From an uncultured Anaeromyxobacter sp. (GTDB lineage Bacteria; Myxococcota; Myxococcia; Myxococcales; Anaeromyxobacteraceae), in contig CAIOAK010000117.1 in NCBI GenBank assembly GCA_903855945.1, positions 1 to 64,000 of the forward strand: a DNA stretch of 64,000 bases, read 5' to 3'. Below the pieces are notes generated by a model. The model did not search any database, was not told the DNA's origin, and saw only the letters and a program-made list of their open reading frames with translations. This document shows positions 50,640-62,869 of the stretch, piece after piece; within the stretch, counting starts at the first letter, position 1; each line of letters opens with the position of its first letter. Position numbers and translations under genes: made by a program.

Positions 50640-50918
50640 ATGGACCGGATGGTGCAGTGCAAGAAGCTCGGCAGGGAGCTTCCTGGGCTCGCGTACCCGC
50701 CGTTTCCGAACGAGCTCGGCCAGCGCATCTTCGACTCCATCTCCCAGGAGGCCTGGAAGATGTGGCTCGAGCACTTCAAGATGATCCTGAACGAGTACCG
50801 GCTGGCACCGGGCGATCCCAAGACCAACCAGATCCTGTTCCAGCAGGCGGAGCAGTTCTTCTTCGGCGCGGGGGCACAGCTCCCGCCCGAGTTCGTCCCT
50901 CCGCCGCGCAAGGGCTAG
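50640..50918 (+). CDS. Fe(II)-trafficking protein, YggX family
   Basis: 92 residues. The N-terminus [17 protein letters not shown] aligns directly with the family pattern M-x-R-x-V-x-C-x-K-L-G-K-E-x-x-GL, with the single conserved Cys7; [34 protein letters not shown] and a C-terminal EQFFFG also match. YggX proteins protect Fe-S clusters from oxidants and move ferrous iron. ATG 50640 is chosen by that alignment over ATG 50649. The next gene, 3 bp downstream, makes an Fe-S radical SAM enzyme, which fits a supporting role. Confidence 0.92.
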
Positions 50919-50921
50919 TGC

Positions 50922-52343
50922 GTGCGGGGCGAGGGCGAGGTCCTCCTCGTCTCCACGTACGAGCTGGGGCACTCGCCCCAGGGCATCGCCTCCCCGGCCG
51001 CGTTCCTGGTGCGCGCCGGATTCCGTCCGGCCGCCCTCGATCTGTCGCTGGAGCCGCTCGACCCGCAGCGCATCCGCCGCGCGCGCCTCGTCCTCCTCTC
51101 CGTCCCCATGCACACCGCGCTCCGGCTCGGGCTGGACGCGGCAGCCCGCATCCGGTCCCTCCATCCCGGAGCGCTCCTCGCCTTCCACGGGACGTACGCC
51201 CCGCTCCACGCGCCCCTGCTCCTCGAGGCGGGAGCCTCCGCGGTGCTGGGCGGGGAGTGCGAGGAGGAGATCGTGTCGCTCGCCCGGGCCATCGAGCGGG
51301 GCGAGGACCTGTCCCGCTTCACGCAGCACGGCGGTGCGGAGGCGTCGCTCACTCGGCTCGACCTCCCCGTCCCGCTCCGCGACCTCCTCCCCGCGCCGGA
51401 CCGCTACGCGCGGCTCCGGGAGGTGGACGGAACCGAGCGAACGGCCGGCTACCTGGAGGCGACACGCGGCTGCCTGCACCGATGCAGGCACTGCCCGATC
51501 CCGGCGGTGTACGGGGGGCGCTTCTTCGCGGTCCCCGCCGACGTGGTCCTCGCCGACGCCGCATGGCAGGTGTCGCGAGGGGTGAGCCACTTCACCTTCG
51601 GCGACCCCGACTTCCTGAACGGTCCCGGCCACGCCACCCGCATCGCCCGGGAGCTCCACCGTCGCTTCCCTTCCGTGACCTTCGACTTCACCGCCAAGGT
51701 CGAGCACCTGGTGCGCCACGCGCCGCTCCTGCCGGAGCTCGCGGAGCACGGGGCGATCTTCGCCGTCTCGGCGGTGGAGTCCCTCAGCGAGCGGGTCCTC
51801 GCCAAGCTCGAGAAGGGGCACACGCGGGAGGATGTCTTCCAGGCCTTCGACGCCTGCGACCGGGCCGGCCTCCCGCTTCGCCCGACGCTGGTCCCCTTCA
51901 CGCCGTGGGAGACCCTGGACGGCTACCTCGACCTGCTCTCGACGTTCGAGGAGCGCGGCTGGATGGGACGGCTCGATCCGGTCCAGCTCTCCCTGCGCCT
52001 CCTCGTCCCGCCCGGATCCCTCCTCCTCGGAGATCCCGACTTCCCGGTGGAGACGCTCGACCCGGCCGCGCTCACCTGGCGCTGGCGCAACCCCGATCCC
52101 CGGATGGACGAGCTCCAGGCCCGCGTGGCCGCGCGGGTGGAGGCCGGGGCCAGCCGGGGGGAGGACCCGGCGACCACCGTGGCGGACGTGAAGGCCCTGG
52201 CCCTCGCCGCGGCCGGGCGCGCCCACGTCCACGTGGCACGCCCCTTCTCCACCAGCGGGACTCCGCGCCTCACCGAGAGCTGGTTCTGCTGAGCGGAGCC
52301 GACGGCGGGGCAGTTGGCTCCGCGAGAAGGCGACCCGCGATAG
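50922..52343 (+). CDS. B12-binding radical SAM selenoprotein, CUAEP-tail family (Sec at 457, TGA 52290-52292)
   Basis: 473 residues if the in-frame TGA at 52290-52292 is read as selenocysteine, 456 if it is a stop. Order: cobalamin-binding-like domain (about 5-135, VLLVSTYELGHSPQGIASPA, with AFHGTYAPLHAPLLLEAGASAVLGG); radical SAM core with Cys184-x3-Cys188-x2-Cys191 (GCLHRCRHC); a C-terminal helical part ending LTESWFC. The next codons are TGA GCG GAG CCG, giving Cys-Sec-Ala-Glu-Pro, the tail that names the CUAEP/CCAEP radical SAM family, in which this position is Sec or Cys. Reading goes on for 16 more codons to TAG 52341-52343. A stem-loop follows the TGA at once. Starts at GTG 50922, 3 bp after the YggX-like gene. 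The reaction is unknown. The tail overlaps the convergent spoIID-like gene by 74 bp. selA, selB, selC and selD are not in the window. Confidence 0.85.
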
Positions 52344-61594: not shown

Positions 61595-62869
61595 CTACTT
61601 CATCGTGGGAAGCGGAGGGCGGATCTCGAAGGCCAGGCGTCGGTGGGACTCCCGGAGGGCGGCCTCGACCTCTGCCGGGGAGTCGCACCGGGCGAAGGCG
61701 AAGCCGAGATAGGCGTCCCCCTCGGGGAGCGGGACGACCTCCCGCCCGTCGGGCGCCGTGATGACCACGTCCTCGATGCCCGGGACATCCCTGGCCGACG
61801 CGAGACCGGTGACGCCGTGCAGGACCCCGGCGCGCGGGATGGGGAGCATCATGACCCCCGAGGCCCGCGACTCGCGCCGCACCGAGGAGAGCGGCATCCC
61901 GACCGCGTGGGCGACCACGATCTCCTCCAGGGAGGCGCCCGCGCCGAACCGGAGGCTCCGGGCGCAGAGGCCGCCGATGGTCCGGGCGGCCACCTCGAGG
62001 ATCACCGGACCGGCCGGGCCGAGCCGGGCCTCCGCGTGGATCGGCCCCTCCCGGAGGCCGAGCGCCTCGGCGGCCGCGGCAACGGTTCGAAGGACCGTGT
62101 CCTGCAGCGGCTGCGGGTGGCGCGACGGCGTCACGTAGATCGTCTCCTCGAAGAAGGGGCCGTCGAGCGGGTCTGGCTTGTCGAAGAGCGCGAGCAGCTC
62201 CATCTGGCCGCCGCGGAGGAGCCCCTCGAGCGCCACCTCCGGACCGGGCACGAAGCCCTCCACCAGGATCCGGCTCCCCTCCCCCTCCGTCCGGGCCTTC
62301 CGGTCGGTGCGGGCGGTGGAGAGGATGGCGACCACGCGGTCCCAGGCCGCCCGGAAAGAGCCTGGGGCGTCGGCCCGGATGACGCCGCGGCTGCCGGACA
62401 GTCCGAGGGGCTTCAGCACGCAGGGATACGGGACCTCGCCCGAGGGGCCATCGGGACCGCCTGCGATGGGGAAGGCGCGGAACCAGGGCACCGGGAGACC
62501 CGCGGCCCCCAGAGCCTCCCGCTGGGCGAGCTTGCTCGCGGTCCGCCGCGCCGCGGCCGGCGGGTTGCGCGGCAGGCCCAGACGCTCCGCCGCCAGCGCC
62601 GCGATCACCGCGGTTCCGTCGTCCCCCGGAACCAGGCCCGCGATGGGCTCCAGCGCCGCCGCCCGGACGATCTCCTCGGCCGCCTCCTCGGGCTTGCGAT
62701 AGTCGATGGAGAGGAGCCCCTCGGTCGCCCCGAAGGCGTCCTCGATCCGGTGGCAGCGGTCGGTGCCCACCAGGACCGGTACGCCGAGGCGGCGGGCCGC
62801 GGCGAGGAAGTCGTCGGCCCGGTAGCTCTGGGTCGGGACGAGCAGGAGGAGGCGCCCCGGGCGGGTCAT
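61595..62869 (-). CDS. ATP-grasp ligase-like protein
   Basis: 424 residues. An N-terminal Rossmann-like domain (LLLLVPTQSYRADDFLAAARRLGVPVLVGTD) precedes an ATP-grasp fold: VLKPLGLSGSRGVIRAD is the ATP phosphate and lysine region, ILVEGFVPGPEVALEGL the grasp strand, and EVAARTIGGLCARS the metal-binding end (Glu, Asn-equivalent Arg). Its closest look is to BL00235/carbamoyl-phosphate-like ATP-grasp proteins such as those that ligate amino acids. It lies 6 bp after purQ and 30 bp before the A2M gene; its substrate is not known and a purine role is not implied. Confidence 0.8.
   Translation of the reverse strand: MTRPGRLLLLVPTQSYRADDFLAAARRLGVPVLVGTDRCHRIEDAFGATEGLLSIDYRKPEEAAEEIVRAAALEPIAGLVPGDDGTAVIAALAAERLGLPRNPPAAARRTASKLAQREALGAAGLPVPWFRAFPIAGGPDGPSGEVPYPCVLKPLGLSGSRGVIRADAPGSFRAAWDRVVAILSTARTDRKARTEGEGSRILVEGFVPGPEVALEGLLRGGQMELLALFDKPDPLDGPFFEETIYVTPSRHPQPLQDTVLRTVAAAAEALGLREGPIHAEARLGPAGPVILEVAARTIGGLCARSLRFGAGASLEEIVVAHAVGMPLSSVRRESRASGVMMLPIPRAGVLHGVTGLASARDVPGIEDVVITAPDGREVVPLPEGDAYLGFAFARCDSPAEVEAALRESHRRLAFEIRPPLPTMK

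Follow-up and report, generated by a model that had tools for sequence, protein, structure and literature searches.

The window, a stretch of 64,000 nucleotides from the genome of an uncultured Anaeromyxobacter sp. (assembly GCA_903855945.1, contig CAIOAK010000117.1), contains a radical SAM gene that is interrupted by an in-frame TGA codon close to its 3' end (Table 1). Its assumed GTG start codon lies 3 nt past the end of a YggX-like gene. A gene caller using translation table 11 ends the radical SAM gene at the TGA, and the conventional ORF (50922-52292) has 456 residues. The TGA is directly 3' of TGG TTC TGC, which encodes W-F-C. When the TGA is read as selenocysteine (Sec, U), translation continues with the peptide U-A-E-P-T-A-G-Q-L-A-P-R-E-G-D-P-R until a TAG codon. 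The original prediction placed the TGA right after WFC, a Cys-Sec-Ala-Glu-Pro sequence in the read-through product and the next stop 16 codons on; all of these were confirmed by translation, which gives the tail WFC-U-AEP. The 3' end of a SpoIID-domain gene on the minus strand (stop codon 52270-52272) is convergent with the radical SAM gene and overlaps the Sec codon, the SECIS element and the radical SAM tail by ~74 nt (52270-52343).

Table 1. Features of the radical SAM locus and the ATP-grasp gene in the window.
Feature	Positions	Strand	Description
YggX-like Fe(II) trafficking / oxidative damage protection protein gene	50640..50918	+	PF04362
CUAEP-tail radical SAM selenoprotein gene (predicted)	50922..52343	+	473 aa with Sec457; GTG start assumed
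TGA, putative Sec codon	52290..52292	+	Residue 457; same column in orthologues
11-bp stem-loop of the original prediction (alternative fold)	52293..52323	+	Arms 52293-52303 / 52313-52323; 9-nt loop GGCGGGGCA
Conserved bSECIS hairpin (predicted)	52305..52323	+	Stem 52305-52311 GCGGGGC / 52317-52323 GCTCCGC; loop 52312-52316 AGTTG
True stop codon, TAG	52341..52343	+	Translation with TGA as U
L-amino-acid-ligase-type ATP-grasp gene	61595..62869	-	ATPgrasp_N, ATP-grasp_4 and LAL_C2, over gathering scores

The protein belongs to the CUAEP/CCAEP radical SAM family, as originally proposed. It scored 628 bits with the tail and 607 bits without the tail against NF040546, the NCBIfam model for CUAEP/CCAEP-tail radical SAM (seleno)proteins, whose curated cut-off is 500 bits. 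The match covers positions 1-467 of the 468 positions of the profile. A profile search also detected the Radical_SAM domain (PF04055). In 36 aligned sequences, the three cysteines of the CxxxCxxC motif (C184, C188, and C191) are invariant, and so are E452, W454, C456, [C/U]457, A458, E459, and P460. The whole-length match, the CxxxCxxC motif and the C-U-AEP tail are all shared with NF040546, and there is no difference of substance.

Since NF040546 is already named for its selenocysteine, this selenoprotein family is already catalogued in NCBIfam and the gene is a new member of it. The claim that a standard pipeline would end the gene at 456 residues holds for the gene caller, but the key residue is not missed everywhere, as the NCBI family model exists and is used in annotation. 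No published function was found for NF040546 in the literature searched, and the family is absent from the selenoprotein list of a review of bacterial selenoproteins (PMC13188914). The in-frame UGA, the downstream bSECIS and SelABCD are shared with other bacterial selenoproteins that have Sec at the C-terminus or in the tail (PMC13188914). The present analysis adds a structure for the SECIS, an ATP-grasp partner gene and the distribution of Sec and Cys; the SECIS or the link to ATP-grasp may have been published earlier.

A sequence search of the PDB with the radical SAM protein found no relative, and therefore a fold search was done with its AlphaFold model. The mean pLDDT of the model is 93.7, with lower values of 68-78 for residues 431-470. 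The best fold matches with Foldseek were AprD4 (PDB 6fd2), a radical SAM 1,2-diol dehydratase, and TsrM, along with other cobalamin-domain radical SAM enzymes (E-values of 5e-19 and 5e-16, TM about 0.55-0.66). The likeness to these enzymes is one of fold, with sequence identity of 19% or less, and the group has no stated counterpart of the CUAEP tail.

The genome encodes the machinery for selenocysteine insertion. The gene for tRNA-Sec (selC) was detected at 78.5 bits, with the anticodon TCA (ARAGORN). selA is present as two pieces in one frame, with 486 bits together, and selB (298 bits) and selD (381 bits) were also found; all three are over their curated cut-offs. A working Sec system had been predicted for this genome, and the lack of selA, selB, selC or selD had been named as a result that would speak against the selenocysteine; all four are present. 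selD (locus L019, C194:45568-46494 of the same genome) itself has an in-frame TGA at its own catalytic Sec site, SHGAG-U-ACK. A stable bSECIS-like hairpin with the loop AGGUC is found 3' of that TGA. selD is a second predicted selenoprotein of the genome and has a loop motif in common with the radical SAM gene. The Sec machinery would thus serve at least one gene besides the radical SAM gene.

The family was observed in 34 of 195 genomes surveyed in the same phylum, over the cut-off in 30. In 29 of these 30 full orthologues, the column of residue 457 is occupied by TGA and [AST]EP follows directly; the remaining one (locus L128 in genome G026) has TGC. The tail is also reached by two of the partial matches, both with TGA there. 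Together with the rise in the NF040546 score, this conservation puts the tail far outside what chance would give. Among the 31 genomes with TGA, tRNA-Sec was found in 25 and selA in all other 6. No selA or tRNA-Sec turned up in G026 or in its congener G027. In orthologues from other lineages (Chloroflexota, Nitrospirota, Actinomycetota, and others), the residue is Cys (TGC or TGT) in 80 of 80 sequences, with the tail WFC-C-AEP, which should not be read as a frequency because the retrieval pattern for these named orthologues included CCAE and biased the set to Cys. Close homologues with an ordinary stop at this position and no AEP behind it had also been named as contrary evidence; the close homologues have TGA or Cys together with AEP, and selenocysteine is therefore favoured. 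In the tree of 107 members and two ArsL sequences, Sec and Cys forms are interleaved, and well-supported branches force at least two changes between them. Two metagenome bins (L060 and L064) are titled Dehalococcoides mccartyi and Bifidobacterium breve. Their copies group with those from Chloroflexi and Acidimicrobiia-type bins, and the titles look wrong.

In the bSECIS model, a stem of 4-16 bp carries a loop of 3-9 nt with G in one of the first two loop positions, the distance from the UGA is 16-37 nt, and the minimum free energy (MFE) is -7.5 kcal/mol or lower (PMC13188914). The predicted SECIS is the 7-bp hairpin, which lies within every one of these ranges: its 5-nt loop is AGUUG, its spacing from the UGA is 19 nt, and its energy is about -11.8 to -13.4 kcal/mol. 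Across 29 Sec sequences, 87% of the cells of the stem pair. None of 2000 arm swaps reached this value (maximum 75%), and a shift of the 3' arm by 1-3 nt reduced pairing to 35-54%. Compensatory changes are seen at six of the seven pairs, and the consensus of the loop is AG[U/G]U. At the same positions in the Cys orthologues, pairing is 36%. The rules of the model are satisfied without a bulge by 26 of 29 Sec sequences vs. 12 of 80 Cys sequences. Among the apparent exceptions, L111 and L118 have the same hairpin in a shifted register, and L107 and L114 form it with a bulge.

The tail matched no RNA family in Rfam; to our knowledge, Rfam has no suitable model for bacterial SECIS elements. Folding energy is a poor discriminator on its own. 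The mean MFE z-score of the tails is -1.06 for Sec and -0.37 for Cys, as GC-rich sequences fold anyway. In contrast, covariation in a fixed register did separate the Sec tails from the Cys tails.

Three other explanations for the TGA and its surroundings were weighed. One accepts the insertion of Sec but assigns the signal to the 11-bp stem with the 9-nt loop, whose shape the original prediction took as the one that a bacterial SECIS must have. This stem is present, and it appears in the MFE fold of a 57-nt stretch (-27.3 kcal/mol, z-score of -2.45 against dinucleotide shuffles). Its own energy is -22.8 kcal/mol, which makes it more stable than the 7-bp hairpin in the window sequence by 9-11 kcal/mol. 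It shows 10-11 of 11 pairs in 4 of the 29 Sec sequences, but only 3-9 pairs in the other 25. Overall, 62% of its cells pair, a value reached by 607 of 2000 arm swaps, and there is no covariation. The UGA and the start of its loop are only 11 nt apart, whereas the range of the bSECIS model is 16-37 nt, and the stem therefore does not have the required form and is probably not the SECIS. Complementarity between the Ala-Glu-Pro codons, GCGGAGCC, and the 3' arm of the SECIS, GGCTCCGC, gives rise to the long stem. Since the 11-bp stem is the more stable fold in the window sequence, the conserved hairpin must win on the translating ribosome. From the known ribosome footprint, the 5' arm of the 11-bp stem, which is formed by the 11 nt next to the UGA, is expected to be in the mRNA channel during decoding of the UGA, which would leave the 7-bp hairpin free. 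A role of the 11-bp stem as the signal is improbable.

Another explanation is that the TGA is an ordinary stop, as the table 11 gene caller takes it, and that the AEP codons are not translated or are what remains of a Cys form after decay. Against it, 29 orthologues from several families keep the AEP-T..Q tail intact after the TGA, the SECIS covaries, TGA co-occurs with Sec genes, and G026, where no Sec genes were detected, has TGC. An ordinary stop is thus very hard to reconcile with these data. Least credible of all is a sequencing or assembly error, or a recent mutation of a TGC codon. TGC and TGA differ by one base, and the genome is a draft of 213 contigs, but the orthologues refute this idea: the same TGA is found in 29 independent genomes, four of which are single-contig (G031, G032, G033, and G042), and the SECIS covaries among them. 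It is very likely, judging from the sequences, that TGA 52290 is decoded as Sec by means of the 7-bp hairpin, giving a CUAEP-tail radical SAM enzyme. The tail, the SECIS, the Sec machinery, the conservation and the partner gene described below are what the sequences show directly.

When the UGA is in the A site of the ribosome, SelB with its bound Sec-tRNA(Sec) would attach to the 7-bp hairpin, which starts 12 nt downstream. Sec would be inserted after Cys456, and translation would run through to the TAG. The product would combine an N-terminal fold like that of cobalamin domains, a [4Fe-4S] site at CxxxCxxC, and a Cys-Sec tail at the C-terminus.

The dominant partner of the radical SAM gene in the clustering of neighbours is an ATP-grasp family, with a member at most about 8 kb away in 57 of 101 loci. 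The orders and strands vary; in Actinomycetota, the ATP-grasp gene is often 17-45 nt upstream. Of the 34 genomes of the same phylum that have the radical SAM gene, 33 also have the ATP-grasp gene, vs. 2 of the 161 that lack the radical SAM gene (Fisher p = 8e-34, a test that ignores relatedness), and the pairing spans five families. Both genomes that have ATP-grasp without the radical SAM gene are fragmented and incomplete. The domain composition of the partner in the window is that of L-amino-acid ligases, and the protein stayed below the cut-off of every curated NCBIfam equivalog. The gene is 9 kb from the radical SAM gene and adjoins a probable purQ (62876 on). The YggX-like gene is directly upstream on the same strand as the radical SAM gene in 35 of 101 loci. 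The Cys-type members (L086, L100, L034, and relatives) have recurrent neighbours of their own: a NifU/NfuA-like protein in 23 loci, mainly in Actinomycetota, and a DUF169 protein in 15 loci, mainly in Nitrospira.

The second-best family for the radical SAM protein is ArsL (NF040542), with 256 bits and an E-value of 5e-76, below the ArsL cut-off of 450. ArsL functions in the biosynthesis of arsinothricin, where its proposed role is to attach the 3-amino-3-carboxypropyl group from SAM to As(III) (PMC8552651). The two proteins share the domain order and are 32% identical over 416 residues (residues 6-412). Their homology stops near residue 412. ArsL ends with a vicinal Cys pair in RCCLKC (KRCCLKC), whereas the protein from the window lacks RCCLKC and has the C-U-AEP tail.

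An ATP-grasp gene is also present within about 4 kb in all four plasmid ArsL loci (L157, L158, L159, and L160), and arsM in three of the four. Most of these plasmid loci include an MFS transporter. The ATP-grasp protein at the Alicyclobacillus ArsL locus matches LAL_C2 below the gathering score. ATP-grasp proteins of CUAEP and ArsL loci are 24-26% identical. In contrast to the ArsL loci with their arsM, MFS transporter and arsN-type genes, the identified recurrent neighbours of CUAEP genes include none of these. No paper searched mentioned ATP-grasp together with arsinothricin.

ArsL is the closest characterised relative, its tail also has a vicinal Cys pair, and an ATP-grasp gene is nearby in both systems. 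By analogy, the enzyme may make a non-protein amino acid from SAM as ArsL does, and the ATP-grasp enzyme may ligate the product through an amide bond. The Cys-Sec pair would be located at the active site, where it may hold the substrate atom or act as a soft-metal or redox site. This function is plausible, if somewhat short of probable; the score below the ArsL cut-off, the lack of RCCLKC and the low identity of the ATP-grasp proteins count against it. A serious rival, which we regard as a fair possibility rather than the expected outcome, is that Cys and Sec in the tail act as a redox pair and form a C-terminal selenenylsulfide, for example to re-reduce an intermediate of the enzyme, and have no relation to metalloid binding or ArsL chemistry. 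There is precedent for a C-terminal selenenylsulfide in thioredoxin reductase. The vicinal Cys-Sec lies at a C-terminus that is flexible in the model, the YggX and NfuA-like neighbours suggest iron-sulfur or oxidative stress care, and Sec in bacteria is mostly redox (PMC9312934). However, the vicinal Cys pair of ArsL, the closest family, belongs to an enzyme that works on arsenic (PMC8552651), and the ATP-grasp partner points to biosynthesis over redox care.

A wider reading of the ArsL-like function is speculative and unlikely as it stands. It holds that the CUAEP/CCAEP radical SAM enzyme and ATP-grasp constitute a widespread two-gene pathway for an arsinothricin-like amino acid, in which a metalloid or chalcogen atom would be held by Cys-Sec and the product capped as an amide or dipeptide. 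Such a pathway would be distributed in Myxococcota-type bacteria, Chloroflexota, Nitrospirota, Actinomycetota, and others.

Gene callers that stop at the TGA drop the residue for which the family is named, and the protein record would lose its most conserved end. The split between Sec and Cys inside one phylum, with Cys where Sec genes were not found, indicates that the tail tolerates both residues and shows that Sec is an improvement, not a necessity. The near-perfect co-occurrence with ATP-grasp, which is common to ArsL clusters, offers a testable hypothesis of two-enzyme biosynthesis for a family of unknown function.
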